Shown here: positions 29,573 to 50,576 of the stretch, piece after piece
Position numbering within the stretch: position 1 is the first letter of the stretch
How the letters are laid out: each line of letters starts with the position of its first letter
Assembly: GCA_947567595.1 (NCBI GenBank)
Contig: CANOMQ010000031.1
Span: forward strand, 1-50,742
Reading direction: 5' to 3'
Length of the DNA: 50,742 bases
DNA from: an uncultured Lachnospiraceae bacterium
GTDB taxonomy: Bacteria; Bacillota; Clostridia; Lachnospirales; Lachnospiraceae
Made by a program: the position numbers and the translations under genes
The notes under the pieces: generated by a model
Database searches by the model: none
What the model was told of the DNA's origin: nothing
The model's input: only the letters and a program-made list of their open reading frames with translations

Positions 29573-29586
29573 ATGCCCCTTTTCCT

Positions 29587-30738: not shown

Positions 30739-30749
30739 TTTCTCTTCTC

Positions 30750-32201: not shown

Positions 32202-32235
32202 CTTCTTATATCACAGTTTTTAGCATGATAATGAG

Positions 32236-33495: not shown

Positions 33496-33507
33496 AAAAA
33501 TTCCTTC

Positions 33508-34821: not shown

Positions 34822-34853
34822 TTCAGTTATCCCCTTAAAAAACCAAAATTATT

Positions 34854-35612
34854 TTAAACTGCCTTCGCCATAAAAAAGCTGGTCCATGAATTGAAATCTG
34901 TATCCTTTAATGTAATGCAGTCTATATTGTCTATCAGCTCAAATCCCGCTTCAGCCAGCAGTGCCTCCAGTTCCGGTCTGAAAAAGTACCGCATTTTATG
35001 CACTTCGTTGATAGTCTGTACTTTACTGCTCTCTTTATGAATAATCAGTACCTCGTAATTGACATCCACTACATTTTCTTTATCATGCATAACCGGCCGC
35101 GCTATCCTAATCAGCCTATTCTTCTCATCTTCAATTTCTTTCACCCTGACACAAGGCTTATCGCTCAAAACGCCCGGTCCATACCATACATCAAAAAGAA
35201 AACAGCCACCTGTCGGAAGTATCCTTCTAGCCGCCTCAAAAGTCCCTAGCAGGTCTCTATTTGTATTCTGATAACTCATTACGTGAAATAGTGAAATTAC
35301 CGCATCATACTTCTTTTCATCTTTGTAATTTTTTATGTCAGCAACCTCAAACTCTATATTTTTTTCATTTGATTCAAGCTGCTGATTTGCTATCTCTATC
35401 ATTAATGGACTTATATCTATTCCTTTGCAGTGATAGCCAAATTTTGCAAGCTCTATGTCATGTTTTCCCGTACCACATCCAAAATTTATGATATTTTGAA
35501 TCTGAGAATTATAACTTTTCAACAGCTTGTCCACCGTTTGCGCCTCTGTTTTATAATCTTTATCCTTATAAAATGCATTATAATAATATGCATAGTCTTG
35601 AAATACTTCCAT
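34854..35612 (-). CDS. Class I SAM-dependent methyltransferase
   Basis: Motif I is IINFGCGTGKHDIELAKFG near residue 38, and the acidic end of beta2 is GIDISPLMIEIAN. The post-motif FDVWYGPGVLS and later region match methyltransferase family 11/25 proteins. The start at 35612 is chosen because GGGAGG lies just upstream and residues before it are not conserved. No Rossmann sensor domain is attached. Substrate unknown; O- or N-methylation of a glycan is plausible in this operon. Confidence 0.83.
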   Translation of the reverse strand: MEVFQDYAYYYNAFYKDKDYKTEAQTVDKLLKSYNSQIQNIINFGCGTGKHDIELAKFGYHCKGIDISPLMIEIANQQLESNEKNIEFEVADIKNYKDEKKYDAVISLFHVMSYQNTNRDLLGTFEAARRILPTGGCFLFDVWYGPGVLSDKPCVRVKEIEDEKNRLIRIARPVMHDKENVVDVNYEVLIIHKESSKVQTINEVHKMRYFFRPELEALLAEAGFELIDNIDCITLKDTDFNSWTSFFMAKAV

Positions 35613-35655
35613 GAAAGCCTCCCTATTTAACCTTATTTCCATGCATAACACTCTT

Positions 35656-36777
35656 TTAACATTTTGTTAAAACACTACGCAGCCTTTCAACTACAGCTTC
35701 CATCTGTTCTTTTGTCAATGCTAACCCACTTGGAATATAAAATCCTTTTCTTGCTAAATATTCAGCGGTTTCAAAGCTTTGTCCTGCAAACATTCCCTGT
35801 TTTTGGTACACCGGCTGCTCATGCATACACCAGAAAAATGTCCTTGCTCCTATCCCTTCCGCAGCCAAAAGTTTTACTGCTTCACGGTTCGATAACTTAC
35901 CCTTCTTATCTAAAACAATTCCATATACCCAATAGATATTATCTGCATATTCCGTTTTTGGAACAGGCAGACGGATTCCTTTTATATCAGACAGATTTTC
36001 CGTATAAAAACGCCCCATCTCACGTTTTTTTGCAACAAACTCCTCCAGTCGCTCCAACTGCGCTAAGCCAACCGCTGCCTGTAAATTTGTAAAACGGTAA
36101 TTATCACTTATTTCATCATGTACATAACGCACATCTTTCCGAAAGCAGAGATTTCGAAGCATCTGGCAGCGCTCCGCAAGCGCTTCATCATCCGTAACAA
36201 CCATTCCGCCCTCTCCCGTTGTAACATGTTTATTGGGATAAAAACTGAATGTACTGATATCTCCAAAACTACCACAAGGCTTTCCCCTATAGGTCTGCCC
36301 ATGCATTTCTGCCGCATCCTCTATCACTTTCAGATGATATTTTTTCGCTAATGCAAGAATTTCATCAACCTCAACAGGTAAACCATATAAATGAACAATC
36401 ATAATGGCTTTTGTTTTTGGTGTTATCTTTTCTTCTATTTTATTCACATCAATGTTCCACGTATCTGCATCACTGTCAATCAATACAGGTACTGCTCCGA
36501 GTTTTGTAACTGCCATCGCGCAAGAAATAATTGTAAAGGTTGGCATAATAACTTCATCGCCTTCCTTAATTTCAAGTGCCTGCATGGCGACTTCCAATGC
36601 AGCGGTTCCATTTGATACCGCAATGCCGTATTTGCGATTCACGGAGGCACTCATCTTCTCCTCAAACTGCCTGACAAACGGTCCCTCTGAGGATATCCAT
36701 CCCGTGTCAATGCATTCACACAAATATTTTTTCTCATTGCCATTTAAAAGAGGTTCGTTCACTGGTATAAAATCCAT
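35656..36777 (-). CDS. DegT/DnrJ/EryC1/StrS family aminotransferase
   Basis: PLP-dependent sugar aminotransferase of about 373 residues. FIPVNEPLLNGNEKKYLCECIDTGWISSEG is replaced here in summary by its key marks: GWISSEGPFV near 35, SNGTAALEVAMQAL near 60, IEDAAEMHG near 155, and the PLP Lys in YPNKHVTTGEGG near 185. It converts a keto-sugar nucleotide to an amino-sugar. The start at 36777 has GAGGAA upstream and is 4 bases past the cupin stop. No 4,6-dehydratase is in the window. Confidence 0.92.
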   Translation of the reverse strand: MDFIPVNEPLLNGNEKKYLCECIDTGWISSEGPFVRQFEEKMSASVNRKYGIAVSNGTAALEVAMQALEIKEGDEVIMPTFTIISCAMAVTKLGAVPVLIDSDADTWNIDVNKIEEKITPKTKAIMIVHLYGLPVEVDEILALAKKYHLKVIEDAAEMHGQTYRGKPCGSFGDISTFSFYPNKHVTTGEGGMVVTDDEALAERCQMLRNLCFRKDVRYVHDEISDNYRFTNLQAAVGLAQLERLEEFVAKKREMGRFYTENLSDIKGIRLPVPKTEYADNIYWVYGIVLDKKGKLSNREAVKLLAAEGIGARTFFWCMHEQPVYQKQGMFAGQSFETAEYLARKGFYIPSGLALTKEQMEAVVERLRSVLTKC

Positions 36778-36781
36778 GCAT

Positions 36782-37225
36782 TTATTCCTCAACTTTCAAA
36801 ATTACTTCTTCATCATAGATACCCTCAAAACGAGTCTTATCCATGTCCCCTGAATAGGGGCCTTGCTTTACCTCTATCATTTCCACTTCCTCCAATACCT
36901 TAAAACCATGTCCCCCCGAGGTCAGTAAAATGGCATCTCCCGATTCCAATATACGGCTTTCTAAATAGTCTTTATATTCATCATAAAAATCTACTCGTAA
37001 CCTGCCTTTTTTGATAAATAACACTTCCTGCGTAAGCACTACGTTTCTATGTACCAAATTATGCACATGTGCATCAATCACTTTACCTGTCGGATGATGC
37101 ATATAGGCTAGCTGTTGTGAAAACTCATTTGGCGTGATAAAATCTACGCCCTCACACTGATAAGTGTTTTTAATGATAATAGCTAACAGTTTATCCTTTT
37201 TTTTAATTAATTGTATTTTTTCCAT
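36782..37225 (-). CDS. Cupin-like protein of surface glycan clusters
   Basis: About 147 residues. A cupin-type barrel is suggested by HHPTGKVIDAHVHNLVHR near 55 and GDAILLTSGGHGFKVLEE near 105. Histidines at AHVHN could bind metal, while the WbuC/FdtA-like sugar isomerase features are only partial. The role may be a nucleotide-sugar isomerase or a binding protein. The start at 37225 has GAGGAG upstream. Directly upstream of an aminotransferase, which supports a sugar-nucleotide role. Confidence 0.7.
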   Translation of the reverse strand: MEKIQLIKKKDKLLAIIIKNTYQCEGVDFITPNEFSQQLAYMHHPTGKVIDAHVHNLVHRNVVLTQEVLFIKKGRLRVDFYDEYKDYLESRILESGDAILLTSGGHGFKVLEEVEMIEVKQGPYSGDMDKTRFEGIYDEEVILKVEE

Positions 37226-37269
37226 ATCAATTCTCCTCACAGCTTCTAATAACAAAATAACGATTTAAC

Positions 37270-38490
37270 TTACATGATAAAGGCTTGCTCCTTTTCTAAT
37301 GGCTCAAACCATATTATTTTTTCATCTGTAATATTTAAAGCCAGCAATTGTTTTTTTATTTCTGATGCAATTATTTCATTCCGTACAGCTATCAACACAA
37401 TATCAAAATCTATCTCCTTCAAACAATTTACAGGAATACATAAATTGTTAAATTTCATTTGAAATTTTTTATCTGTCCATGCAACAATATTGTATTCTGG
37501 TTCAAGTATCATTTGACTGATATAATCTTTCCCTACTTTTCCAGCACCATATAATACTAAACGGTGCTTTTTTAATCTGTTATTATCCGGCAATAAATAA
37601 CGGACTGTTCCCAAACCCTTTTCATAAACACGGTTCATACAACCGATCATGCGGATAAGCAAATAGTTATCCATAAAATTTTTCATTTTTTCCAAGTAGC
37701 CATATTCCTTCCAAATAAGACACAGCTCATTATGCAAATTACTTTCCCGCCAAAAATTATTAATATTCCATACATGAGATAAAGAATTTTCCCGTATCAT
37801 ATAATGATATTCAGCCTTTGCTAGTACAATAAACTTATGACTTTTTAAAATTCCTCTACAAAAAGCAAGCATATCTTCTCCAAAGGATTGATTATCTGGT
37901 ACACAGCTATAGCATTCCTTTATAAAATCTGTATGAAATAACTTAGAACACAATATACTTACTAGATGTTCCCCATCACATTCATGTTGACATAAAATAT
38001 GTCTTTGTATTAATTCAATTTTATTATCCTCATTTGTAATCGTTCTGTCGCAAGTTGTTATAAACATTCTTGTATTGCCATTTCCCTCTTCCGCTATAAT
38101 GCCGCTATGTACAAAATCTGCATCCGAATTTTTCAAACAATACAACAGGTTCTGATAAAAAGTCCCTTCTATGTAATCATCTCCATCAACAAATCCCACA
38201 TATTCTCCTGATGCAATCAATAACCCTGCCTTTCTTGCAGAAACTAACCCTCCGTTTTCCTTATGGATTACCTGAATTCTTTTATCATTCTCAGCATACT
38301 TATCGCATATTTTTCCTGAACCGTCCGTAGAACCATCATCAACCAATATAATCTGTAAATCAGAATAAGATTGCATCTGTATACTTTCAATACACTTTGG
38401 CAAAAATTCCAAAACGTTATACACAGGCACAATTACACTAACTACATTATTCACATTAAGGTTAAATTTCTTATACTTATTTTTTACCAT
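37270..38490 (-). CDS. GT2 glycosyltransferase with C-terminal Rossmann module
   Basis: Same architecture as 29587-30738. GT-A part: VVSVIVPVYNVLEFLPKCI, IILVDDGSTDGSGKICDKY and VDGDDYIEGTFYQNL. C-terminal module from about residue 310: RLVLYGAGKVGKDYISQ, AWTDKKF, and the terminal KIIWFEPLEK segment. The start at 38490 is a clear ATG with AAGGA upstream and overlaps the preceding methyltransferase end by 7 bases. Confidence 0.88.
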   Translation of the reverse strand: MVKNKYKKFNLNVNNVVSVIVPVYNVLEFLPKCIESIQMQSYSDLQIILVDDGSTDGSGKICDKYAENDKRIQVIHKENGGLVSARKAGLLIASGEYVGFVDGDDYIEGTFYQNLLYCLKNSDADFVHSGIIAEEGNGNTRMFITTCDRTITNEDNKIELIQRHILCQHECDGEHLVSILCSKLFHTDFIKECYSCVPDNQSFGEDMLAFCRGILKSHKFIVLAKAEYHYMIRENSLSHVWNINNFWRESNLHNELCLIWKEYGYLEKMKNFMDNYLLIRMIGCMNRVYEKGLGTVRYLLPDNNRLKKHRLVLYGAGKVGKDYISQMILEPEYNIVAWTDKKFQMKFNNLCIPVNCLKEIDFDIVLIAVRNEIIASEIKKQLLALNITDEKIIWFEPLEKEQAFIM

Positions 38491-39464
38491 TCTATTCCTT
38501 CTACTTTTTTTGCAAGCGTCATATATCCAAAGCACAGTATCTCGTTGCTCCCCTGATCCATGTTTGCCAATTTGGATAATAAACTCATATTTTTATAAAT
38601 GCATTCATAATCCTCTTCTTGTAACTGATAGCCACAATATTTTTCTGCTATTGCTTGTATACGTAGCATTTCCTGACATAAAAATTTGAAATAATTTCCA
38701 TATTCTTTTATTTCTATAATTTCAAAGCCGTTTTCCCGCAGATGATCACGATACCAATATAGGCTAAAACCATTATAGTAATAGTATGGAGCCATATGTG
38801 TCAAGCTACATACTGGCGCCGTTAACAATAATATCCCATCTGTTTTCAAAACTCTGTTAAATTCTTTTAATGCCAATACTGGATTTTTAATATGCTCAAA
38901 TACTTCTGTACACATAATGACATCAACTGTTTCCTTTTCCAACGGCATATCAATAATATCACAAATTATGTTACACGCAGATGTATCCCACTTTGTCATC
39001 TGAAATCCTCTATGCTCTTCCTGAGGATCATATTTTCCGAAATCTTGCGCAATATATTTTAGATGTTCACAATATTTTGCATATTTCATCTCCCCTGCCC
39101 CAGCATCTAAAATAGTCTTTCCACTTTCTATTTCTGATAATTTTGTTATAACCCATGTATCCCTAATTTCCTCAATATTAATTGGAATGCCCAGCACATC
39201 TTTTGTTGATATAATTCTGTTCTCTTTAATATTATATTTCTCGTGTAGTTCCTGTTTAATTTCATCATAAAATTTTCTACTTGTAATAAATATATAATCA
39301 TATTCCTTAGTGTTAATTTCTGATGGTTGTATATAAGATCCACCCATACTTTTTCTATTCTTATCACTATATGCTACTATATCAAAATATGATTTTAAGA
39401 ATGTTTCGTATTTTTGAAACTCTCTTCCTAATCCATACACAATTACTTTTTTACCTTGATACAT
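38484..39464 (-). CDS. SAM methyltransferase with N-terminal Rossmann module
   Basis: Residues about 5-90 carry the module (KKVIVYGLGREFQKYETFL, VAYSDKNRK). Residues about 118-260 are a class I methyltransferase: TILDAGAGEMKYAKYC near 115 as motif I and MCTEVFEHIKNPVLALKE near 185, typical of methyltransferase family 11. The module is strikingly similar to that of the GT11 protein at 43493-44611, including a following FYDEIKQELHEKYNI segment. Start at 39464 has GGGGGA upstream. Confidence 0.84.
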   Translation of the reverse strand: MYQGKKVIVYGLGREFQKYETFLKSYFDIVAYSDKNRKSMGGSYIQPSEINTKEYDYIFITSRKFYDEIKQELHEKYNIKENRIISTKDVLGIPINIEEIRDTWVITKLSEIESGKTILDAGAGEMKYAKYCEHLKYIAQDFGKYDPQEEHRGFQMTKWDTSACNIICDIIDMPLEKETVDVIMCTEVFEHIKNPVLALKEFNRVLKTDGILLLTAPVCSLTHMAPYYYYNGFSLYWYRDHLRENGFEIIEIKEYGNYFKFLCQEMLRIQAIAEKYCGYQLQEEDYECIYKNMSLLSKLANMDQGSNEILCFGYMTLAKKVEGIEW

Positions 39465-39499
39465 ATGCAAGTCCCCCTATAACCCTTTTTATAAATATT

Positions 39500-40630
39500 T
39501 CAATCACATTGAACTGCCACATCTATAAGATTTTGATTCGCATCTTCCGAGCCTCCCTGACAAACTTTGCAAAATGTAAGATAGCCTAATGGTGTATACC
39601 CCAATTCGAATGCTAAGATATCCTTCTTTTGGATATCTTTGTGGAAATCCAAGCAATCATTTTCATTATCAGGAAATAACCCTGAAATGACAGCAGCACA
39701 ATTACTACAACAATGGTACAGCTTTCCTTGATAAAAATTACGACAAAATATCGCACATTTATGATAAAGCATTTCTAATTCCGAATCTGTTCTTTCCGTT
39801 GGAATGTTATCAGGAAATCCCATATCCAACCATTTTTCCCCACTTCTTTTTATATCATAACGAATATTATGATCACGAAAAACAGCTACAATGTTATCTA
39901 ATTTGCACTTATCCGGAACCGCACATGTATAATCACTAATATCAATAATTACATCCTTTTCTTTGCATAGCTTAAGGATATCCTCAGAAGGATACAGTGT
40001 TCCGTTTGTTCCTATCCTAATCTCACCAATCTGATCACTATAATTATCATATAAATATGTCACGTATTCTTTTAAATGTGGATATACAAAACCTTCTCCA
40101 CCCAATAATTTCATTTTCTTAACATAATCCACTTTACTAAACAAAAGATCTGCATCAGACAATAATTGCTCTATGGAAAAATGTTGTTTTTTTTGATATG
40201 GAATATAAGAAATGCATTTTTGACAATTCAAAGTACAAAATGTAGTCATTACAATCTCTATTCTGTCAACAATAACCTGATTTCTGACATACACATGATA
40301 AAAAGCTTCATATATTTCTTCCTGAAAAAAATTAATATTTTCTTCCCATCCTTTTTGCTTAAAGTATTCATAAATGTCCAGATATTTTTTCCTGTCCTTT
40401 TCAGCACATACAACAATGTTACTATTCTCATTCAGAACATTATAGTCATTTGTGATAATAAATTTTCTATTAGAAAACTGCTCAAATTTCTTAATATACT
40501 CGTTTTGCCTTTCCAAGCTACCAACCAAATAAACATTTAAGTACTTATTAGAAATAATATTTCCAATTGAATCAAGTTTTCTAGGTACAGTATCATCCAA
40601 TTTAGTACTGTTCATTGTAAAATTACGCAT
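39500..40630 (-). CDS. Radical SAM protein with N-terminal Rossmann-like region
   Basis: The CX3CX2C motif is FCTLNCQKC near residue 133, after IEIVMT, and the GGEG motif is KLLGGEGFVYPHL near 175. A later Cys-rich region (FCRNF, CCSNC, FCKVC; about 290-365) suggests SPASM-type auxiliary clusters. The N-terminal 110 residues have a degenerate Rossmann-like pattern (LNVYLVGSLERQNEYI, ITNDYN, NIVVCAEK) that echoes the module seen elsewhere in the operon. Radical SAM members in such operons are not well studied. Start ATG 40630 has AGGAG upstream. Confidence 0.83.
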   Translation of the reverse strand: MRNFTMNSTKLDDTVPRKLDSIGNIISNKYLNVYLVGSLERQNEYIKKFEQFSNRKFIITNDYNVLNENSNIVVCAEKDRKKYLDIYEYFKQKGWEENINFFQEEIYEAFYHVYVRNQVIVDRIEIVMTTFCTLNCQKCISYIPYQKKQHFSIEQLLSDADLLFSKVDYVKKMKLLGGEGFVYPHLKEYVTYLYDNYSDQIGEIRIGTNGTLYPSEDILKLCKEKDVIIDISDYTCAVPDKCKLDNIVAVFRDHNIRYDIKRSGEKWLDMGFPDNIPTERTDSELEMLYHKCAIFCRNFYQGKLYHCCSNCAAVISGLFPDNENDCLDFHKDIQKKDILAFELGYTPLGYLTFCKVCQGGSEDANQNLIDVAVQCD

Positions 40631-40649
40631 TTTCTCTCTCCTGTGTGCT

Positions 40650-41387
40650 TTACTTCTTTTCTGCTAAAGAATTTAAAACTACATCATTTACTAATGTATA
40701 GTGCTTTCCCCCAACCTCAATATAAGCTCCCTCATATGGAGGAAACCAAAATGCTTGAATTTTTGTGTCTACATCGTCATTTTCTAAGTCAATTTTCATT
40801 AACTCCAAAACATCCTTTTTTCTGTAGAAAAGACCCTTCCTTAGATCTTGCTTTTCTCCCTTAATCACTTTTTTAACATGTATTTCTCTCAAAATTTCTT
40901 CAAATAATTCATATAAAGCATCATTTGTTTTTTGCTTTAAACTATATGCTGTCTCTTTCCTGTAATCGATTGGAAACATTTTTTTTCGGATAATATCACC
41001 CTCATCAAACTTTTCATCTACGCAATGGACAGTTCCTCCCCATTCCGTGACTTTATTTAAAATAGCCAGATTGCATCCGCCTGATCCTCTGTAATCTGGC
41101 AGAGGTGCCGGATGAAAGTTAATACATCCAAATTTGGGTGTACTAATAAAGGGCTCTTTAATTTTCTTATCATATAACCAACTTATGGCCAAATCAGCCT
41201 GCGACGCTAAATCAACTATTTGAGTATAATCATCTCCTAGGTACTTTATGTGTTTGTTATCCAAAAGCTGACATAATCCTCTATCACCAATCACTCCTAA
41301 AAGCACATCTTTGGTCTCTTCCAGTGAATCAATAATTTTGCCAATATAGTTAGTATAGGCACTTCTAGTAAATAACAATATCTTCAA
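40650..41387 (-). CDS. Sugar formyltransferase (Fmt-like)
   Basis: The formyltransferase catalytic triad is visible: NFHPAPLPDYRG with Asn and His near residue 95, and the Asp of EKFDEGDII near 130. The N-terminal ISWLYDKKIK is typical, while no C-terminal tRNA-binding domain of methionyl-tRNA formyltransferase is evident. It likely N-formylates the amino-sugar made by the DegT aminotransferase next to it. The start is TTG at 41387 with GGAGG 8 bases upstream; a longer frame to 41402 is less likely. Confidence 0.88.
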   Translation of the reverse strand: MKILLFTRSAYTNYIGKIIDSLEETKDVLLGVIGDRGLCQLLDNKHIKYLGDDYTQIVDLASQADLAISWLYDKKIKEPFISTPKFGCINFHPAPLPDYRGSGGCNLAILNKVTEWGGTVHCVDEKFDEGDIIRKKMFPIDYRKETAYSLKQKTNDALYELFEEILREIHVKKVIKGEKQDLRKGLFYRKKDVLELMKIDLENDDVDTKIQAFWFPPYEGAYIEVGGKHYTLVNDVVLNSLAEKK

Positions 41388-41413
41388 AAACGTATCCTCC
41401 AATTCATATGTGA

Positions 41414-42370
41414 TTATTTAATAATTTCTTCATTCAAATATGCATATATATCAGATCCCAACGATATATAATCAAATCCCCCTTCTTCTAACCGTTCCCA
41501 TATCGTTATATCCATAGGTGTTACAATAACTAATGTATTTTCTTTCTCTATTTCATTTATTTTTGATACATTATCATATAAGTCTGAGTATTCATCAGAA
41601 ACTATAAATCCGCTGAATGTATACCCATATTTTTTCAAATACATTTTTATTGCTTTTCCGCGGATACCATTTCCATAAACATATATATTTGCATACATGC
41701 ATATCATCTTATTTAACTCATTTATTTCTCTTACACGGTTTGAATATGAAAAATGGAACTCTGGAAAAAAATATTCAAGAATTAGTTTTGAAATATATTC
41801 GTAATCATCGTCTGCAAAATGACATCTGTCTATATATTGGATTGTTTTATAGTTCATTTTCCGATTTAAATCAAAAAATATTAAGTCCAATTCTTCTGAA
41901 ACTATCTTTAAAATCTCGTTTCGTTTTTTAATTTCTGCATTATGGTCTAAGCCACTTTCTTCATCAGTGCATCCTTCAAATGTCAACGACATTACCTTAA
42001 CATTAGTGCTATATTTTTTTAGCAAACACAAAATTTTCTTAGTTCTATCTTTATACTGCCCTGCTGCTTCCTCTGATTGTACACATTCAATATTGTAACC
42101 ATGATGTGCTCCTATATGATAAATAATGCAATCATATTTATATGGCATTTTTTCAAAGAAATGACATATTTCTTCCATAACCATATCATCTAAAATGCTG
42201 TAGGACATTGCTAACAAGTCGACACAATACCCCCCCGCATAAAAACTTAATCTTTTTCTTATGTCTCTTGTAACAGAGTCGCCTATCAAAATAATTCTTT
42301 GTTTGCATTTATTAGCGTCTTCAATCCAATAATTCAGCCACTCTGTCGTCTCACGTCTGCTAATATCCAT
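41414..42370 (-). CDS. SGNH-like hydrolase with C-terminal Rossmann module
   Basis: Residues 1-210 resemble an SGNH hydrolase: block I IILIGDSVTRDI near 28 (catalytic Ser), block III-like IYHIGAHHGYN near 85, and block V with DRCHFADDDY near 185. Residues about 228-318 are the PglD_N-like module (NIYVYGNGIRGKAIKMYL, IVSDEYS). Likely an O-acetylesterase or related transferase acting on surface glycans; the fusion suggests the module is a shared recruitment or binding part. Not placed in a named family. Confidence 0.78.
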   Translation of the reverse strand: MDISRRETTEWLNYWIEDANKCKQRIILIGDSVTRDIRKRLSFYAGGYCVDLLAMSYSILDDMVMEEICHFFEKMPYKYDCIIYHIGAHHGYNIECVQSEEAAGQYKDRTKKILCLLKKYSTNVKVMSLTFEGCTDEESGLDHNAEIKKRNEILKIVSEELDLIFFDLNRKMNYKTIQYIDRCHFADDDYEYISKLILEYFFPEFHFSYSNRVREINELNKMICMYANIYVYGNGIRGKAIKMYLKKYGYTFSGFIVSDEYSDLYDNVSKINEIEKENTLVIVTPMDITIWERLEEGGFDYISLGSDIYAYLNEEIIK

Positions 42371-42375
42371 CTGTT

Positions 42376-43467
42376 TTACCTTTCCAAATAAAACTCTTTA
42401 ATGCATGTGCATATATACACAATCTGTTCATTTTTTAAAGTTATCATTGACGGCAGCCATAATATGCGCTTAGTCACAGCTTCTGTTACCGCAAACTCCC
42501 CACCATATCCATATGCTGGTTCTGAGTGAAGTGGCGGATAGCATTCTCTGCTGCCTACACCTCTTTCTTTTAGATACTCCTGTAGCTCTGCTCTTCTTTC
42601 GCATAATATTTCATAAAACCATGGTAAAGAATCATTAATATCAATAGAAATCATCTCTATTTGTGATATATCTTTCAGTAAATCAAAATAAAGTTTCCAA
42701 AGTTCTCTCTTTCTTTGTATGCGAGATGGTAATTTTTTCATCTGCTCTATCCCAATAACTGCCTGTAAATCAGTAAATTTAAAATTCCATCCTTTTGTTA
42801 TGTAATGGTCACTTCCGCTCTTTTCACGACCAAAATCCCTGATTAGTTTTATTTTTTCATACAAATTTTTATCATCTGTAATCAATGCTCCTCCCTGTCC
42901 TGTTGTAATAATTTTGGGTACACTGAACGAAAAACTTCCTATCTCGCCAAATCTTCCTAAATGAACTCCCCCACATCTGCTCCCTAACGATTGTGCCGCA
43001 TCCTCAATAAAATGTATTCCTCTGCTTTGACAATACACAATAAACTCATGGATATTTTCCGGGCATCTTCCATTTATTGATACAAAAATCACTGCTTTCG
43101 TTTTGAAAGTAACTGCTTCTTTCATTTTTTCAAAATCCATACAGAATGTATCTTTATTTATATCTGCAAAGACTGTTTTTGCTCCAATCAATTCAACTGC
43201 ATTTGCCGTAGCAACCATCGTATAATCGGGAACTATAACTTCATCTCCAACGTTCACTCCACAAGCCATCAAGGCAACCGAAAGACTTAACGTACCATTC
43301 GGCATTATTGAACAATATTTAGCACCTGTGAAATCTGCTATCATGCTTTCTAATTCTCGCGTCTTTTTAAATTCCATAAGCCATCCACCAGAACGAAGAT
43401 ATTCATCCATCGCTTTTCTCTCTGCATCATCAAAAGATGGCTCCATTTGGTTAATAAATTCCTGCAT
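42376..43467 (-). CDS. DegT/DnrJ/EryC1/StrS family aminotransferase (second copy)
   Basis: A 363-residue sugar aminotransferase of the DegT family, paralogous to 35656. MPNGTLSLSVALMACG, VPDYTMVATANAV and IEDAAQSLG mark the fold, and the PLP Lys is in SFSVPKIITTGQGGALITDD near 180. Start ATG 43467 is preceded by GGAG. Sits 6 bases from the SGNH gene. The two DegT copies may act on different keto-sugars. Confidence 0.9.
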   Translation of the reverse strand: MQEFINQMEPSFDDAERKAMDEYLRSGGWLMEFKKTRELESMIADFTGAKYCSIMPNGTLSLSVALMACGVNVGDEVIVPDYTMVATANAVELIGAKTVFADINKDTFCMDFEKMKEAVTFKTKAVIFVSINGRCPENIHEFIVYCQSRGIHFIEDAAQSLGSRCGGVHLGRFGEIGSFSFSVPKIITTGQGGALITDDKNLYEKIKLIRDFGREKSGSDHYITKGWNFKFTDLQAVIGIEQMKKLPSRIQRKRELWKLYFDLLKDISQIEMISIDINDSLPWFYEILCERRAELQEYLKERGVGSRECYPPLHSEPAYGYGGEFAVTEAVTKRILWLPSMITLKNEQIVYICTCIKEFYLER

Positions 43468-43492
43468 ATTATTTCTCCGTATTTCCTAATTT

Positions 43493-44611
43493 TCACATTT
43501 TAATCCAATTTTCTTCATATACATCCGGACATGAAGTAGTATTATTCCATTTTTGAGGCACTATAACGGTACCTTGTTTCCCATGTATCCATGAAGCCCA
43601 CCAACTCATTGAACTATTGGCCCCAATAATATGTTTACATTGTGAAATTAGGAAAATATTAAATTCCTTAAATTCCTGTGAATCAAGATTGTATGTAATT
43701 ACATTCATATCTCTATATTTTTCTTTGGCATATTCTTCGTCATTGGAAAACACAAAAAATTCTGCATTCGGATGCATATTACGAATGTAATCTATAGCCT
43801 TTTGATAATAGTCATCCGTACATATATCTCCAAATATTTTTCTATTTTCTTCATTTGCAATATAATCTCCCCGTCTCACCCAAATCGCCACTGACTCACT
43901 GCTTTTTATATGATGAAGTATTTTCTTTTGACGATACGATACCGCATTCTCATTAATATTCAGCAAAGTTTTCCTTATTGAATCACCGATATCATCAAAA
44001 TAACGTCCTGTTTGCCAATATCCGTTATAGTAACCACTCCCCCGCATAAATATATCTGCATCAAATTTACTCATTTCCTTTTCTGCATAATATCCTTTCA
44101 TCTTTGACACTAATACTTCTGTTTTGGACGCAATCTCTAATTTTTCATTAAATAGTCTTTCAAAAATCCAAGGTACCTGAAACGACATTAGAAACATATT
44201 TTCCGAATAATACCATGACAAATCTACTTTGACCGAAACAGTAGGATATAAAAATTGAAGTTTCTTATATAACGCATATTGAAAAAGGTAGTTCCCCATT
44301 CCTCCATACATTCTGATTACGATAACATCCTTTTCCGCTTCCATTATTTGCTTTAAACTAATTATTTGTTTCGATTGTATGTTGCAATTTTCTACTAAAT
44401 TATTTTTAATCTCTTCATAAAATCTGCTGGCAGTTACAATAATATAATCAAATTGCAAATTTTTTATTTCCTTACATCTCACAAAATTGTCACACAATAC
44501 ACTTTTCTCATCATTAGAATCGGAAACTCCTACAATAGTATACTTTTTAGAGAAATAATCTTTATAATCTAAAAAATTGGCTCCCATACCATATAAAACA
44601 ATTTTTTCCAT
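43493..44611 (-). CDS. GT11 (alpha-1,2-fucosyltransferase-like) with N-terminal Rossmann module
   Basis: Residues 1-95 carry the module (EKIVLYGMGANFLDYKDYF, VGVSDSNDE) followed by the same FYEEIKNNL stretch as in 38484-39464. From residue about 97 it is a GT11: VIRMYGGMGNYLFQYALYK, the motif AIWVRRGDYI near 240 and SSMSWWASWI near 342. The GT11 family makes alpha-1,2-fucosyl or related galactosyl links with GDP-fucose. Start at 44611 has AGGAG upstream; 11 bases after the previous stop. Confidence 0.87.
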   Translation of the reverse strand: MEKIVLYGMGANFLDYKDYFSKKYTIVGVSDSNDEKSVLCDNFVRCKEIKNLQFDYIIVTASRFYEEIKNNLVENCNIQSKQIISLKQIMEAEKDVIVIRMYGGMGNYLFQYALYKKLQFLYPTVSVKVDLSWYYSENMFLMSFQVPWIFERLFNEKLEIASKTEVLVSKMKGYYAEKEMSKFDADIFMRGSGYYNGYWQTGRYFDDIGDSIRKTLLNINENAVSYRQKKILHHIKSSESVAIWVRRGDYIANEENRKIFGDICTDDYYQKAIDYIRNMHPNAEFFVFSNDEEYAKEKYRDMNVITYNLDSQEFKEFNIFLISQCKHIIGANSSMSWWASWIHGKQGTVIVPQKWNNTTSCPDVYEENWIKM

Positions 44612-44621
44612 CACCATTCTC

Positions 44622-47111
44622 CTATTCTATACCGCAAAGCATACATATATAATTCTTTATATTAATAATTGGACCATCTGTCTCCCTAAGACTACAATCT
44701 AAATTTCCCCAATTATATATGGCTTCCATTCTATTTACATTTTGTTCTACATTTAGTTCCACGGTATCAATTATTTCATATTCATCATTTAAAATAATCC
44801 ATCTTCCCGTTTTTGTTTCAACAAGTATCTTTTTATCTTCCCACTCAAAAAGTGTATTAAACCTTGAATAATGATCCCAGTAATTTTCCTCGTCGTAATC
44901 ATCTTCACTTATATTAATCTCCCTTATTTCACCTGTCCTTTTATTCATGCGCAATAACTTATTTGCAAGTCGAGGCAATAATACAATTTCATTTCCCACA
45001 ATGTGCTGCATATGAAAGCTCCATTCGCCACACACATAGCCCAAAGGAAAACTTTTTATAATTTGTACAGTCTCACATTTTTCATTTATCTTAATTATCC
45101 TGTCGCCCTTCATAGGAAACACCCAATAATATTGCCCTGCTTCAACAATCCCAGCAAGTGGCTCATTGCTGATAAAATCCAAAGTGTCTACCTTTTTTGT
45201 TTTTAAATTCACATGAACTATTTTATTTTGTGTTATACTTGTAAAAATAACATTTTCTTTTTCCTGTACAAAATTCCCCCATGAAAATATATCTGTATAT
45301 TTTTCACCAATACAAGGTAATGTTATGGACTTATCTTCCTCAATAATTTCTTTTTCCATATTAAATGCCACAATTTGATCATATTGACACGGCAGCAAAA
45401 ACAGGATGTCTCCTAACATCACTCCCCCATTAAAACACGCTCCATTTATCCTTCCTTTGAACCCAAACTCTATATAACTTACTTTACCTTCTGCTATATG
45501 ATAAACTGCAATGTATTTGCATAGATCCGGCATTAAAATCAACTTATCCTTATAAGAAAATAATTTTGTATATCCCATTTGCGTTAAATACAGTTCATCC
45601 ACATGCGGCATATAACGTACATACTCTACCATGAATGTATTTAGGTCCATCTTGTACAAAATATTATCTTTTACAGAAACAAAATACCAATCATTACCAA
45701 CACGTGTGCCATTACACATAGCAACGCTTGATTCGGTCATTGCCTCCACATTCTGTATCATGATTGGTTTTCCTGTTTTCTTATACAATGCCACAACGGA
45801 GCTTCCATCCCCGTAATACGCATCACTTATTATAATCGCTCTATTTATATCACTACTGTCATCATAAATCCCCCAGCCTTCTTCCCGATATTTTCTGACA
45901 AGCCTGTCATATTCTATCCAAAGCTGCGGTCGCATACTTTCCACTGTGGCTTTAATCAATGGATGTGGACGCCACAAAAGAACTACATTTTCCTGATTTC
46001 CTTTAAACACCTCAAATACAGACTCCATCTTTTGCAGCATTTTCTCATTATATTGCAACAACGCACCTACACTCGTATTGTAGAAAACAATTTTCTTCCA
46101 ACTTCCGTCTGCCCTCTCAATAATCTGCAACCATTCCGGCGGTATCTTTAAATCTCCCTTTTTGGTATTCAATACCTTATCAATCTTAGGCGAACCAAGT
46201 CCCAATATTTTATCATCCCAATATTTCCTAGCTGCCTCACTATGATCATTTGTAGCATCAAGAAGAACCTTCATATATACCTGCTTCATATCCTCTGATT
46301 GTACAATGACCTTATGTGCATTGAATACGGCCGGTGTCGTCACAAAATGCTTCATTCCCTCTATTTCATCAGTGTCATCCGGTTTCATTTCATTCAGGAC
46401 AAAATATGGTATATATACTAATTTCTCCGTATACTTCTTCAAATTCTCCGAAAAGAAAAACGGTGGTACACTCGTCACATAATTTAAATCATCATACGGA
46501 TTGTGAATATAAATTGTATCCGGTCGGTGCGCCTCGAAGTCAAATTCATCGTACTTCGTTATCGGAACATAATCCGGGTACTGCTTTCCTTCATAATGCA
46601 TTTCCCGAAAGCTTCCATCCGGATTTTTATCATAATATGGTATCGGGATAACAAACGCGTCACAGTTCGGATCTTCGTCTGCCGCCTTCCATACACTCTC
46701 TAAGCTGTCCCACATACTGGCCTTATATGGCAGGAAAACTGCCTCTGTTCTGATTGGAATATCGTTTCTGATACAATTTCCAATCTTAATCATTTTCTGC
46801 CGAAGCAGCTTGAACACCTTACTGGATTTGATTTCTTTATACTCTGCCAAATTTGCATGAATCTGATAAACCAGTTCACAATACTCTTCTAACAACGATA
46901 CCGCAGAATGCCCTTCACCCTGCGTCTGTTCAATCAAGGTACCTATGGCAATCCCGCCATTCTGACAATCCTCCAAAAGCTCCATCGCAGACTGCACGCT
47001 GCCTTGTTCTATATACTGTTTTATCTGGTCGTGTGCTTCTTCAATCTGTTTGACCAATTCTTCCGCCTGCTGTTTCTGCGCTTTTCTCATCTTCTGCTCC
47101 CAGTTATACAT
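44622..47111 (-). CDS. Large CDP-glycerol-transferase-like protein with coiled coil and propeller-like tail
   Basis: An 829-residue first gene of the glycan operon. Residues about 1-120 are helical and charged (QKQQAEELVKQIEEAHDQIK). About 120-470 resembles a GT-B fold of the CDP-glycerol glycerophosphotransferase (TagF/TarF) clan: LWRPHPLIKATVESMRP near 380 and DAYYGDGSSVVALYKKTGKP near 435 (replacing the usual D-Y-S-S). About 475-829 is beta-rich with repeated turns (GNDWYFVSVKDNILYKMDL and related), likely a propeller. Possible donor: CDP-ribitol or CDP-glycerol. An alternative start at 47090 (GGGAG upstream) is possible. Confidence 0.78.
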   Translation of the reverse strand: MYNWEQKMRKAQKQQAEELVKQIEEAHDQIKQYIEQGSVQSAMELLEDCQNGGIAIGTLIEQTQGEGHSAVSLLEEYCELVYQIHANLAEYKEIKSSKVFKLLRQKMIKIGNCIRNDIPIRTEAVFLPYKASMWDSLESVWKAADEDPNCDAFVIPIPYYDKNPDGSFREMHYEGKQYPDYVPITKYDEFDFEAHRPDTIYIHNPYDDLNYVTSVPPFFFSENLKKYTEKLVYIPYFVLNEMKPDDTDEIEGMKHFVTTPAVFNAHKVIVQSEDMKQVYMKVLLDATNDHSEAARKYWDDKILGLGSPKIDKVLNTKKGDLKIPPEWLQIIERADGSWKKIVFYNTSVGALLQYNEKMLQKMESVFEVFKGNQENVVLLWRPHPLIKATVESMRPQLWIEYDRLVRKYREEGWGIYDDSSDINRAIIISDAYYGDGSSVVALYKKTGKPIMIQNVEAMTESSVAMCNGTRVGNDWYFVSVKDNILYKMDLNTFMVEYVRYMPHVDELYLTQMGYTKLFSYKDKLILMPDLCKYIAVYHIAEGKVSYIEFGFKGRINGACFNGGVMLGDILFLLPCQYDQIVAFNMEKEIIEEDKSITLPCIGEKYTDIFSWGNFVQEKENVIFTSITQNKIVHVNLKTKKVDTLDFISNEPLAGIVEAGQYYWVFPMKGDRIIKINEKCETVQIIKSFPLGYVCGEWSFHMQHIVGNEIVLLPRLANKLLRMNKRTGEIREINISEDDYDEENYWDHYSRFNTLFEWEDKKILVETKTGRWIILNDEYEIIDTVELNVEQNVNRMEAIYNWGNLDCSLRETDGPIINIKNYICMLCGIE

Positions 47112-47202: not shown

Positions 47203-47221
47203 TAAACAAAATATAGATTTA

Positions 47222-47505
47222 CTTAGTCTGCGTCTTTTGCAGACTTAGAAAATCTTTTTGTTTTATCATAAGGATTAGCCGGGCGTTTTATGCCTGTAAA
47301 TCCAATTTCATTGGATTTACTTCGCTCCGCATAAGGCTGCGGTCTTGGCATACCGGAAAGTTATTAAAATAACTCAGATAATGCCGTTTGTTGCCTTTGT
47401 GAACAGCATTTTGCTGTGCACGATATTGTTAACATACGTTCCTGTGATCCTGCTTGGTGTATTGTATCCGTGGCATTTCCCAAAACGCCCCCGATACAAT
47501 ACACC
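47222..47505 (-). ncRNA. Structured region downstream of the TnpB-like gene, candidate guide RNA scaffold
   Basis: Several inverted repeats are present. The largest is GGTGTATTGTATC (47456-47468) with GATACAATACACC (47493-47505), 13 perfect pairs. Inside it a GGCGTTT/AAATGCC inner stem with one G-U pair extends it. Others are ACAGCA/TGCTGT (47403-47417), GTTATT/AATAAC (47360-47373), GTAAATCCAA/TTGGATTTAC (47296-47320), and AGTCTGC/GCAGACT (47225-47245). It starts 70 bases past the TnpB-like stop on the same strand. Structure is directly seen; an RNA role is inferred. Confidence 0.5.
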
Positions 47506-47574
47506 GGGTGAAACTGCCTATGTAAAATTTGTTTCAAATCTTAAACAGACCGTTTATTCTCAGTTCTGTATGGT

Positions 47575-48954
47575 TTAACCGACTTGCGTCTTAAAATTCT
47601 TTTTAGTTTTAACGTTTTTGCTACTGTTATGTTTATTTTCAATATTTCTTGCGCCATTTAGGGCAATTGTGGCTTTATATCCGCAGCTTGGACACACAAA
47701 ACCGTCCGGCTGCCGTTTTCCTTCTGCCCCACAGCAAGAACATATGCTTCCTGTCCCTTTGGAATTAATCTCCACAAGTTCAATAGAGTGAAGACGGCAT
47801 TTATAAGAGAGCCGTTCCCTGACATATCCATTAAAGCTTCTTGTCATATTTCTGTTTGCAGACTTTGATGCAAGCTTTGTCTTGTTAATTGTCACCGGCT
47901 TTGTAATCACAACCCGCTCCGGTTTTTCCGTCGCAAGCATTCTGTTGATTTCCGTATTGATAAGCGCCTGTGTCTTTGTGAGTTCTTTCTCTTTACGCCT
48001 GTCATATTTCTGCGTACCAAGATTATTGGCTGCGATACATTCTGCCTGTTCCTGCTCTCCTGACATGATACTGTCTTGATATAACGCCCGCATTTTTGCA
48101 CGTTCTTTGTTCTTTTGCATCAATCGCTGCGTTTCTGTTGAGGTTATGGCGCCCAGCGACTGTCCGTAAACAACTCCATTGGAAAGCGTGAACATATCCT
48201 GATAGCCGATATGAATATAAATCGTACCATTATAGTCCTTGTGTTTTTTAATTGTTGTTTCCACTGGAAGCGCAAGCGCAGCATATTCATTTTTGATACA
48301 AATCCGAATTTGTCTGTCACAGATTTGATTATCTTTTAACGGAATCGGTATTCTCTGTCCTGCCGTTCTTGACGCAATACATATAGCACCATCCCTGTAT
48401 GCATAACCAGAAGGCGCTATACTGAAATAATCTCCGCCGCCTGTCTTTGGCTTTGTCAGATACTTTCTTGTCAGCCTTCGCAGCAGATTATTCAGACGTT
48501 CTACATCAATATCCAGACCTTGTGCCCTTTTCGGCATTTCATAATCCTCACAGCAAAGCACCGCTGCATATATTTTGTCAAGCTTCAAAACGGTTCTTAG
48601 ATAAAGCCTATCCTCATCACTTAGGTTCTCATTTGCCGCAATCAGTGTTCCAATCCTGTTTTTGAGCATTCCCCACATTCCCTTGATATCGGCAACTGCC
48701 TCAACAATGGCGGGGTCAAAATATGCGGACGGCAGTCCAAGCTGCGTCCTAATGCCGCTATGGCGCACTTCACGCATAATGTCAAATACCGGTGTAAGTC
48801 TTCCAAGACTTTTGATGCCGGAATACCGTTTGTATGTATAATTTTTTACCTTGCCATAGTCAGATGCAATTCCTCTCAAAAATACCATTGTATCTTCTGG
48901 CAGCATTTCACTGTACTGCCAAACGGTCTTTGTGATTGTACTACCTGCGGACAT
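47575..48954 (-). CDS. TnpB-like protein with replaced RuvC catalytic residues
   Basis: About 459 residues. The C-terminal zinc finger has four Cys (SICSCCGAEG and FVCPSCGYKA), as in TnpB. Aligning by eye to TnpB: strand 1 reads IYIHIGYQDMFTLSNG where the family has GIDLG (Asp to His near residue 245); the second motif reads ERVVITKPVTI where the family has VIEDL (Glu to Thr near 348); the third reads ATIALNGARNI where the family has a D before NAARNI (Asp to Ala near 430). All three RuvC acids are absent, so nuclease-dead is likely. No TnpA partner is found. ATG 48954 has AAGGG 8 bases upstream. Confidence 0.82.
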   Translation of the reverse strand: MSAGSTITKTVWQYSEMLPEDTMVFLRGIASDYGKVKNYTYKRYSGIKSLGRLTPVFDIMREVRHSGIRTQLGLPSAYFDPAIVEAVADIKGMWGMLKNRIGTLIAANENLSDEDRLYLRTVLKLDKIYAAVLCCEDYEMPKRAQGLDIDVERLNNLLRRLTRKYLTKPKTGGGDYFSIAPSGYAYRDGAICIASRTAGQRIPIPLKDNQICDRQIRICIKNEYAALALPVETTIKKHKDYNGTIYIHIGYQDMFTLSNGVVYGQSLGAITSTETQRLMQKNKERAKMRALYQDSIMSGEQEQAECIAANNLGTQKYDRRKEKELTKTQALINTEINRMLATEKPERVVITKPVTINKTKLASKSANRNMTRSFNGYVRERLSYKCRLHSIELVEINSKGTGSICSCCGAEGKRQPDGFVCPSCGYKATIALNGARNIENKHNSSKNVKTKKNFKTQVG

Positions 48955-49087
48955 TCTGTTCACCCTTTTTGAATAATCTGTCTTTTTTATTTTGGCAGAA
49001 TAATTCTTTTTCGATAAACTGTTAATAAAAGCTGCTCTGATATACGCACGGACACAAATTTACGATCCGCAAAACAGTTATGCAAGC

Positions 49088-49116
49088 TTATCGTAGATTT
49101 CCCGAATCTACGATAA
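49088..49116. repeat. 29-bp quasi-palindrome, copy 1 (candidate recombinase core site)
   Basis: Arms TTATCGTAGATT (49088-49099) and AATCTACGATAA (49105-49116) are perfect 12-base inverted repeats around the asymmetric core TCCCG. A second copy at 50548 is the exact reverse complement of all 29 bases. It lies 34 bases past the integrase stop at 49150. Confidence 0.9.
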
Positions 49117-49120
49117 AACG

Positions 49121-49140
49121 TTCCAAACACTTCCAAATAC
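49121..49140. repeat. Tandem 10-base repeat beside copy 1
   Basis: TTCCAAACAC (49121-49130) and TTCCAAATAC (49131-49140) are adjacent 10-base direct repeats with one mismatch, lying just beyond the quasi-palindrome. They could be recombinase or accessory-factor sites. Function is not known. Confidence 0.55.
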
Positions 49141-49149
49141 AGTGTTTCT

Positions 49150-50253
49150 CTAACCTGCATGACCATAAATGTGACCATAAAGCTTTGACAGGCTGTCCAC
49201 ACATTGACGTTTTGTGTCCATAGACGGATGCACATAACGGTTCAAAGTAATTTCTACATCAGAATGGCCTAGCATTTCACTAAGGCTTTTGACATCCGTT
49301 CCTCCTTCAATACAGTTTGTGGCAAATGTATGCCGCAGAATGTGAAAGTTTGTATCGGGCAAATTTGCCTCCCGCAAGATCTTTTTAAAACGGTACTGTA
49401 AATTTCTAGGTTCTAATGGTTTATCTCCACCAAACACGTATTCGCCATTTCTATAAAAACAAATAAGTTTTTTCAGTATTGTGTCTGACAATGGAATTTC
49501 TCTACAAGAATACGCACTTTTGGGGACTGTCTCTATTAGTATGGTTTTTGTTTTATACCCTTCAACATGAAGGCGCTGTACGGTTCTGCTAACCACAAGC
49601 GTTTTGTTATCAAAATCAATGTCACTCCATTTTAGTGCACACAGTTCGCCGAGTCTAAGTCCTGTGAACAGACACAGCAGCACCGCCATTTTAAACAAAT
49701 CCGTTTCATGGCAAAGAGCGGCAACCAATTTCTGCTGTTCTTTTTTGATAAACGTTTTAATGGGCTTATTTTTCATTTCCGATTCAGGCTTATTTAAGCA
49801 GGGCATTGCTATAGAATACCGACGGAACGCGTATTTTAAAACTTGATTTAGCACACAGTAAATACTTTTGCGCATGTTGTCTGATAAATGGTCTGAAAGG
49901 GTTTCTTTGACAAGCGTATCCGTAATCTCTGACAGCATCCTACCTGAAAAATCCTTTTCAATGTGTTTTTGAAAAACCATACTATACTTTACATAAGTTG
50001 ATGGCTTTCTTTTCACTTTTACTTCCACAAGCCATTCCCGCGCCGCATCGTTCAATAGAATTTTCCGGTTTCCCCCGCCTCCATTCTGCTTTGCCGGACT
50101 TTTATGCAAAAACAGTTTTTCGCGCACCTCTTCGTATGTCCTGCCATAGACAGAACAGTAAACCTTCTTCTGTTTTTCGGCATTATATACAGGATAACGC
50201 CCCTCCCAACGACCATCTTTTCTTTTTCTTATGTTTTCTCCATGTCTTGCCAT
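49150..50253 (-). CDS. Tyrosine-type site-specific integrase
   Basis: 367 residues. N-terminal AP2-like arm-binding domain (RKRKDGRWEGRYPVYN near 10), core-binding domain around residues 75-170, and C-terminal catalytic domain. All catalytic residues are visible: Arg in FTGLRLGELCALKW near 200, His/Arg in FHILRHTFATNC near 302, His in MLGHSDVEITLNRY near 326 and Tyr near 335 (LNRYVHPS). It resembles conjugative-transposon and phage integrases of Firmicutes. No excisionase gene is seen nearby. It is flanked by palindromes and TGACCATAAA repeats, so it may act on those sites. Confidence 0.93.
   Translation of the reverse strand: MARHGENIRKRKDGRWEGRYPVYNAEKQKKVYCSVYGRTYEEVREKLFLHKSPAKQNGGGGNRKILLNDAAREWLVEVKVKRKPSTYVKYSMVFQKHIEKDFSGRMLSEITDTLVKETLSDHLSDNMRKSIYCVLNQVLKYAFRRYSIAMPCLNKPESEMKNKPIKTFIKKEQQKLVAALCHETDLFKMAVLLCLFTGLRLGELCALKWSDIDFDNKTLVVSRTVQRLHVEGYKTKTILIETVPKSAYSCREIPLSDTILKKLICFYRNGEYVFGGDKPLEPRNLQYRFKKILREANLPDTNFHILRHTFATNCIEGGTDVKSLSEMLGHSDVEITLNRYVHPSMDTKRQCVDSLSKLYGHIYGHAG
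49160..49181. repeat. TGACCATAAA direct repeats, 3' end of the integrase gene
   Basis: TGACCATAAA at 49160-49169 and 49172-49181 are identical 10-base direct repeats with a 12-base period, inside the last codons of the integrase (encoding its YGHIYGHAG tail). The same word recurs upstream of the gene at 50365. Candidate arm-type integrase binding sites. Confidence 0.6.
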
Positions 50254-50364
50254 AACAATTATTCCTCTCTGCTTTTGTGATTTTTTAAGAACGCTCTGAC
50301 CTTTATCAATTTGTTTTTCTAAAAATCAGGCTGCCTCGTTTTCAGGAATTTTTGACCCTAAATC

Positions 50365-50407
50365 TGACCATAAAATGCCCTATATACCTTTATTTTTACC
50401 ATAAAAT
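50365..50407. repeat. TGACCATAAA-type repeats upstream of the integrase
   Basis: TGACCATAAA at 50365-50374 is identical to the two copies at 49160 and 49172; a near copy TTACCATAAA lies at 50396-50405, and the shared ACCATAAAAT is at 50367-50376 and 50398-50407. These sit about 110-150 bases upstream of the integrase start and may be arm-type sites. The rest of 50254-50364 shows nothing else recognisable. Confidence 0.6.
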
Positions 50408-50473
50408 ACTGTTATCACCATATATTTCCTAGTCATCAGGCAATGATTTTGGCAATGATTTTCTAAAAAATGT

Positions 50474-50502
50474 TTGCTATTTCTCTTAATTCATGTTAAA
50501 CT
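50474..50502 (+). promoter_or_regulatory. Possible plus-strand promoter
   Basis: TTGCTA (50474-50479) and TAAACT (50497-50502) with a 17-base spacer form a moderate sigma-A-type match reading rightwards through the second palindrome and out of the window. No gene start is visible downstream within the window, so this is weak. Confidence 0.3.
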
Positions 50503-50528
50503 AATACCGATATAACGTTATGTAGACA

Positions 50529-50576
50529 GAAAAATACAGTATTTTTCTTATCGTAGATTCGGGAAATCTACGATAA
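50529..50576. repeat. 29-bp quasi-palindrome, copy 2, with abutting 19-bp palindrome
   Basis: TTATCGTAGATT (50548-50559), core CGGGA (50560-50564), and AATCTACGATAA (50565-50576) make the exact reverse complement of copy 1 at 49088. A second palindrome abuts it on the left: GAAAAATAC (50529-50537), one central A, GTATTTTTC (50539-50547). Beyond 50577 to the window end (about 165 bases) nothing recognisable is seen. Confidence 0.9.

Follow-up and report, generated by a model that had tools for sequence, protein, structure and literature searches.

What is a TnpB-like protein that has lost every catalytic acid doing at the head of a glycan operon? The locus lies in the window, by which we mean the whole 50,742-nt stretch analyzed, which makes up all of contig C31 in the 4.16-Mb, 99-contig genome of an uncultured Lachnospiraceae bacterium. 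A first-pass annotation had proposed a TldR-type, nuclease-dead, RNA-guided regulator. A protein of that kind would be homologous to TnpB, have an inactivated RuvC domain, have a guide RNA encoded beside its gene with a complementary genomic target, and be stably associated with genes other than those of transposons. As far as sequence can speak to it, the proposal gains support from three sides: the acids are lost throughout the family, a conserved element resembling a guide RNA follows the gene directly, and a target can be predicted.

The protein and its family

47575-48963, minus strand: nuclease-dead TnpB-like (TldR-like) protein; intact ORF with a GTG start, 462 amino acids, with H251, T354, and A434 in place of the RuvC D, E, and D

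The ORF had earlier been given as 47575-48954; the lower coordinate stands, and the upper one lies 9 nt further, at 48963. The 462-residue protein shows the homology to TnpB that is found in TldRs, matching PF07282 at 1e-13, over the cut-off, and the TnpB model NF040570 at 2e-16; the latter score falls below its cut-off (60 versus 100 bits), and the protein is thus a divergent TnpB relative. The likeness lies in the C-terminal half. PADLOC returned matches to Cas12f/Cas12u and one to Csx1, and nothing else. The genome carries a second copy on contig C1, 60% identical, and these two are its only PF07282 genes at E≤0.001. Named relatives are mostly labeled Lachnospiraceae.

The replacement of the three RuvC acids (Asp, Glu, and Asp) by His, Thr, and Ala, noted in the first-pass annotation, is borne out by the alignments and by phmmer comparison with solved chains. 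The motifs IYIHIGYQD, VVITKPV, and ATIALNGARNI begin at residues 248, 351, and 431, respectively. In the phmmer alignments (three chains shown), H251 falls at the RuvC-I Asp (VVGVDLG in the best chain) and A434 at that of RuvC-III (ADYNAARNI and ADFNASQNI). In a 73-row alignment, composed of 72 nonredundant family ORFs plus the window protein, which is thus counted twice, the RuvC-I column holds 35 H, 16 Y, 12 S, 8 A, 1 P, and 1 gap; the RuvC-II column holds 41 T, 17 P, 11 A, 3 V, and 1 E; and the RuvC-III column holds 35 A, 14 K, 10 S, 5 P, 5 R, 1 Y, 1 N, and 2 gaps. Asp is absent from RuvC-I and RuvC-III in all 73 rows, and likewise among the window protein and 40 relatives. The sole RuvC-II Glu belongs to a 214-residue fragment with canonical-looking motifs (L209), which from its sequence is probably an ordinary TnpB; the RuvC is dead in every other aligned row. 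The replacements differ by clade (H/Y versus A/S at RuvC-I), suggesting an old loss.

The four zinc-ribbon Cys residues, described earlier as kept, are invariant in the 38 sequences aligned. An AlphaFold2 model (38 sequences; pLDDT 83.7, pTM 0.60) places H251 in the strand at 246-252, T354 in the strand at 348-354, and A434 at the beginning of the helix at 433-461. The Asp of IGYQD (D256) had been named as a possible shifted RuvC-I acid. We rejected this candidate on the alignment, where its column is unconserved (43 D, 8 N, 5 A, 4 C, 4 T, 3 V, 3 H, 1 E, 1 S, and 1 gap). By the sequence alignments, the protein lacks the D, E, D set of an active TnpB and has the inactivated RuvC of a TldR. TnpB has an RNA next to the 3′ end of its gene; the protein resembles TnpB and Cas12f in this respect, in its C-terminal sequence, and in its zinc ribbon, and it is unlike them in lacking the RuvC acids and in scoring under the TnpB model cut-off.

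The downstream RNA and the glycan genes

47265-47590, minus strand: conserved structured RNA (putative guide RNA), starting over the tnpB stop codon; start approximate
47265-47387, minus strand: RNA 3′ domain with pseudoknot, matching covariance model R1
47262-47276, minus strand: putative 15-nt guide, AATCCTTATGATAAA, from tail matching and genome search
44622-47111, minus strand: GLY, first gene of the glycan operon; weak match to PF04464 (CDP-glycerol glycerophosphotransferase), 8.8e-5, 22.0 bits versus a cut-off of 22.1
46488-46502, minus strand: GLY site equivalent to the guide target, AATCCGTATGATGAT, codons N-P-Y-D-D; coordinates by hand
28364-44617, minus strand: rest of the glycan operon as far as scanned (Pfam scan)

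Some 230 to 480 nt 3′ of the tnpB stop codon are conserved across the relatives, from a GGTTAAA..GAGAATAAA-like block over or just past the stop codon to an end like CTAATnCTTATGAT. Window positions 47170-47590 fold with a z of −9.1. In 22 aligned 3′ domains, 94.2% of cells are paired and 15 of 25 pairs have changes on both sides, the structure having been drawn from the very alignment on which pairing was scored; none of 500 shuffles matched this pairing, and sliding the partners leaves at most 40% paired. A pseudoknot helix just 5′ of the tail is 100% paired, with two compensated pairs and none broken (variants CCG/CGG, CGG/CCG, CGC/GCG, and CUG/CAG). The covariance model finds the RNA directly 3′ of tnpB at 37 of 41 loci, the window included; 22 of these built the model, 5 more match at E values from 3e-25 to 1e-19, and 10 from a distant clade match at 9e-8 to 0.07. 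It finds none at the other four (L005, L008, L010, and L036). At E≤1, the window's own genome has exactly two matches, one behind each dead tnpB, and within the genus the RNA occurs at 37 places. Rfam at the gathering score returned tRNAs only (11 sources) and no family for the RNA; two weak matches near the locus have E values of 1.2 and 2.2. A conserved structured RNA, putatively the guide, is thus encoded beside the gene, as in TldRs.

Several loci show further features around the RNA. At L093 (8140-9802), the RNA occurs a second time, apart from tnpB and 1.4 kb from the first copy; its 3′ extension differs, and a PD-(D/E)XK transposase-like gene separates the two. Distant-clade RNAs (L003, L004, L012, L038, and L039) have a different tail, CCAATATG(C/T)CTT(A/G)TT. 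In the window, a long inverted repeat follows the guide at about 47205-47264 (AAACAAAAAGATTT..AAATCTATATTTTGTTT), and in L090 the core CTAAGTCTGCAAAAGACGCAGACTAAG is shared and the stem enclosing it differs. At several loci the bases 3′ of the tail form hairpins, as read by eye, which could be leader structures.

The glycan operon lies downstream of tnpB on the same strand, as first described. Its scanned genes after GLY are mostly sugar-modifying and glycosyltransferase genes: GT11, two DegT aminotransferases, a formyltransferase, a radical SAM protein, two methyltransferases, two GT2, GT-D, GT1, LicD, and two proteins without a Pfam family. Among the 41 loci, GLY is 3′ of tnpB on the same strand in 28 (in four of them at 2 kb), 5′ in three, and not seen in ten, for which mostly about 1.5 kb of flank is available; the stable association with nontransposon genes that is typical of TldRs is thus present, with GLY downstream in 28/41. 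At L028 (6748-8358), an AAA-ATPase/PD-(D/E)XK-like gene of about 537 codons sits between the RNA and GLY, and a related gene is also found in L026, L027, and L029 (the scan covered that of L028). The window also carries two tRNA genes, both on the minus strand (103-188 and 18165-18244; Rfam RF00005).

The RNA tail, conserved as AAYnCnTATGATRAW, reads as Asn-X-Tyr-Asp-(Asp/Asn), the codons of an H-N-(P/A/G)-Y-D motif in GLY, a link that was spotted post hoc. Since the tail is in the sense orientation to GLY, it could pair with the template DNA strand and could not pair with GLY mRNA. For 19 guide-GLY pairs, namely those caught by script patterns that missed tails preceded by CGAT (L002, L025, L030, and others), the HNPYD site was the best match among 1050 offsets on both strands, and guides with permuted columns reached it 0 to 1 times in 1000. 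The bases after the conserved TATGAT were also considered as the guide and were rejected for this tail: genome searches with them returned about as many matches as the reversed control (6 versus 4; 3 versus 3) or the RNA itself, and local scans gave nothing convincing.

In the full data set, 66 GLY sites were compared with 36 guides, which came from 23 genomes of the genus. All RNA places but one of the 37 were used (G314, E 1.1e-4, has no recognizable tail), and 74 GLY rows were reduced by six (three from G299, outside the genus set, and three fragments) and by two without the motif. Over 15 nt, 30 of 32 guides had a better match in a nonadjacent GLY than in the adjacent one, with 2 ties and none worse (means of 13.25 and 11.06 of 15, respectively), and the counts were 29/2/1 at 14 nt and 27/4/1 at 12 nt; this sets one adjacent gene against the best of several and is biased towards the several. 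When the mean of the other GLY genes replaced the best, 21 of the 32 guides favored the others (15 nt). Genome identity provides the stronger test: among cassette-free GLY genes, those in the same genome as the guide were matched better than those in other genomes, to a degree equaled in 1 to 3 of 5000 permutations at 15 nt, 1 to 6 at 14 nt, and 25 at 12 nt. Complementarity to a genomic target, as expected of a TldR guide, is therefore present statistically; it is imperfect in most genomes and complete (15/15) in three, G304, G324, and G317.

The third residue of the motif points the same way. Seven genomes have an HNAYD GLY, and each of their 10 guides has GC (Ala) at positions 4 and 5, compared to 3 of 26 elsewhere (Fisher 1e-6); counted by genome the figures are 7/7 versus 3/16 (p 5e-4), the genomes being related. 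The adjacent GLY is also of the Ala type for 6 of those 10 guides. For nine of the 36 guides (three S, two T, one L, and three A type), none of the nonadjacent GLY genes found shares the third residue; missing targets prove little, since many of the genomes are drafts. The genomes of one genus being related, none of these counts represents independent events.

Guide-GLY matching is high at positions 1 to 15 and then falls to background, except at positions 19 and 20, which are equally high for the adjacent GLY; position 6 matches in 44% of the best nonadjacent targets and mismatches in 56%. There is no match at −6, −5, or −3. An A at −4 (context ATACAT) is found at 27 of 35 cassette-free and 9 of 31 cassette GLY sites (Fisher 1.6e-4), making ACAT, 5′ of the target, a candidate and probable flanking motif. 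When five genomes were searched with AATCCTTATGATAAT, allowing at most one mismatch, 33 matches were found, one of them the window's own RNA, compared to 2 for the reversed control; exactly one match per genome has ACAT in front, and each of these is a GLY gene. A tnpB relative lies near four of the 35 "cassette-free" GLY genes, whose omission changes nothing; for most of the 35, only about 1.5 kb of flank was covered.

In the window's own genome, the C1 guide matches the GLY of contig C5 at 14/15 positions, the window GLY at 13/15, and its own GLY at 10/15, and the window guide matches the C5 GLY at 13/15 and its own, adjacent GLY at 12/15. The guide of G299 matches its best paralogue at 13/15 and its own GLY at 12/15; the C1 guide of G300 matches its own GLY at 14/15, equal to any other. 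We also considered whether each guide avoids its own GLY specifically. This is unsupported, because permuting guides among cassettes left the match to the adjacent GLY about unchanged, permuted guides mismatching cassette GLY genes about alike. The "immunity" thus belongs to the cassette GLY genes as a class, which are poor targets for the guides generally. The downstream glycan operon had been suggested as a possible target or partner; it holds up as the partner, and the predicted target is instead the GLY of a paralogous operon elsewhere, at C5:39735-41075. The C5 and C1 operons have common gene kinds after GLY (GDP-mannose-dehydratase-like and UDP-GlcNAc 2-epimerase), as expected of alternative versions of one coat.

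The same RNA could be read as a cis-acting leader of the glycan operon, an antiterminator or attenuator that the dead TnpB binds for control of its own operon, with no target in trans. Gene order is consistent with this, since GLY comes after the protein gene and the RNA, in the same orientation, at those 28 of the 41 loci and hairpins follow the RNA at several. However, the RNA stays with tnpB where GLY is upstream (L032-L034) or where another gene intervenes (L026-L029), the second copy at L093, with its different 3′ extension, stands apart from tnpB, and the tail varies in step with the GLY genes that head other operons of its genome. We therefore regard a cis-acting leader as unlikely.

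The upstream segment

49090-49114, plus strand: recombination-like site, copy 1, ATCGTAGATT-TCCCG-AATCTACGAT; from an inverted-site search in which 100 shuffles gave no match
50550-50574, plus strand: recombination-like site, copy 2, inverted, ATCGTAGATT-CGGGA-AATCTACGAT; from the inverted-site search
49150-50253, minus strand: tyrosine recombinase (PF00589), inside the putative invertible segment
50474-50512, plus strand: Sigma70-like promoter inside the segment, pointing away from tnpB (OFF); coordinates by hand

Upstream of tnpB, positions 49090-50574 are bounded by two perfect 25-nt sites whose 5-nt centers are reverse complements of each other, and the promoter (TTGCTA-N17-TAAACT..CGATA) sits at the far end of the segment. 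Besides tnpB, the interval from the recombinase gene to GLY has no further gene-like ORF. At 12 places, the window included, a recombinase gene is surrounded by inverted TTCGCAGA-type sites about 1.4 to 1.5 kb apart, and pairs about 0.36 kb apart without a recombinase gene occur at 4; with a doubled arrangement in strain A4, the total is 17 of 41 places, many of the others being short of upstream sequence. Inverted sites flanking a promoter, as in a tyrosine-recombinase inverton, are thus present.

A promoter pattern was found at 20 places, disregarding matches far from tnpB. It faces tnpB at five (L002, L013, L016, L028, and L089), points away at 14, including the window and two near-identical loci without a clear site pair (L030 and L037), and points both ways at A4. 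L027 (away) and L028 (towards) have the same neighbor genes with opposite promoter orientations, and in L013 and L016, both ON, the recombinase gene has the reverse orientation; these are differences between assemblies of relatives rather than flipping observed directly within one strain. The architecture makes the segment a likely phase switch, and the recombinase, which the first-pass annotation did not mention, probably makes the cassette phase-variable. At A4 (L088:2669-5530), two identical recombinase-promoter segments stand head to head in opposite orientations, which is either a true duplication or the product of assembling the two orientations together. The distant-clade members L004 and L011 have a different inverted repeat upstream of tnpB (TTGCAAAAAGTATAGGTTTTGCAA type), 130 to 140 bp apart.

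The presence of a recombinase gene within the available sequence of 20 of the 41 loci raises another reading, in which the complex is not a repressor: it could guide the neighboring recombinase as a recombination-targeting factor or recruit RNA polymerase as an activator. Yet the recombinase has inverted sites of its own, unlike the guide, some inverted segments have no recombinase gene (L002 and L026-L028), and targets inside coding sequence are unsuited to activation; we consider either role very improbable. That the protein is a functionless, degenerate TnpB remnant carried beside a phase-variable glycan locus, as the loss of every catalytic acid and the sparse distribution (9/299 family and 6/295 order genomes) might suggest, is scarcely credible in view of long open frames and invariant noncatalytic residues among relatives with 32 to 82% identity to the window protein, compensated RNA pairs, and an RNA present in 24 of the 38 genus genomes.

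A model and its precedents

The best model, and in our judgment a probable one, is that the protein is a phase-variable, TldR-like, RNA-guided repressor that, with its own surface-glycan operon switched on, would silence the alternative ones; that the protein binds RNA and DNA, that the segment inverts, and that transcription is repressed are all inferred. When the segment flips to ON, protein, guide RNA, and local glycan operon would become one transcription unit. The protein-guide complex would pair with the template strand inside the GLY of an alternative operon, probably flanked by ACAT, and block transcription of that operon, so that one surface glycan would replace another. Targeting of the template strand by dead Cas12-type proteins is an effective block to transcription. 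In the genome as assembled, the window cassette would be OFF and the C1 cassette ON, and both guides would have the cassette-less C5 operon as their common target, where the simplest effect would be an R-loop that acts as a roadblock about 590 nt from the start of the first gene.

Bacteroides capsule loci have recombinase-driven invertible promoters before polysaccharide operons, and exclusion between those loci works via protein factors; we know of no RNA-guided factor there. The present loci resemble them in the likely inversion of a promoter ahead of polysaccharide operons. Among flagellin systems, Hin is a serine invertase, and the hin-csrA-tldR loci look like the nearest precedent, to which the glycan system appears to run parallel with a different recombinase. 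According to the published account (PMC13418256), csrA-linked TldRs have guides inside fliC genes, with hin genes and promoter inversion upstream. With the csrA-associated TldRs of Oscillibacter and Flavonifractor, as described there, the present system would have in common a chromosomal nuclease-dead TnpB with a guide RNA (putative here), guides within the coding sequence of alternative surface-structure genes (predicted here), an invertase gene with promoter inversion upstream (likely here), and several loci per genome. The csrA-associated systems in the same account combine Hin, CsrA, flagellin, and inversions of about 120 bp, whereas here a tyrosine recombinase gene lies inside a segment of about 1.5 kb and the operons are glycan operons. 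The fliC-associated TldR of flagellin-remodeling prophages (PMC13418256) represses the resident gene and supplies an alternative isoform, the same scheme that is predicted here; it is prophage-borne and aimed at a promoter, whereas here the predicted target is coding sequence and the promoter is probably invertible. At L008 (1492-4343), a distant family member (34% identical) lies directly 3′ of a flagellin gene on the same strand (PF00700, 2.5e-30), with no R1-type RNA found there; this hints at a link between the glycan-type and csrA-linked flagellin systems. Our literature searches found no glycan-linked TldR, and an earlier description is possible.

More broadly, and with somewhat less assurance than for the repressor itself, we lean towards a picture in which recombinase-flipped cassettes couple a glycan operon to a dead-TnpB guide complex that would silence alternatives through a codon signature in their first gene, the cassette copies being recoded and poorly matching, so that coats in Lachnospiraceae would exclude one another by an RNA program. 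The model names concrete targets and predicts which operon should change on inversion, making it testable, for instance in COE1 and A4. Sensitivity to phages and recognition by the immune system commonly depend on surface glycans. If the model is true, the reach of RNA-guided transcription factors would grow beyond flagellins to include Lachnospiraceae surface glycans, and a single cassette would combine two layers of regulation, stochastic DNA inversion and RNA-guided silencing.
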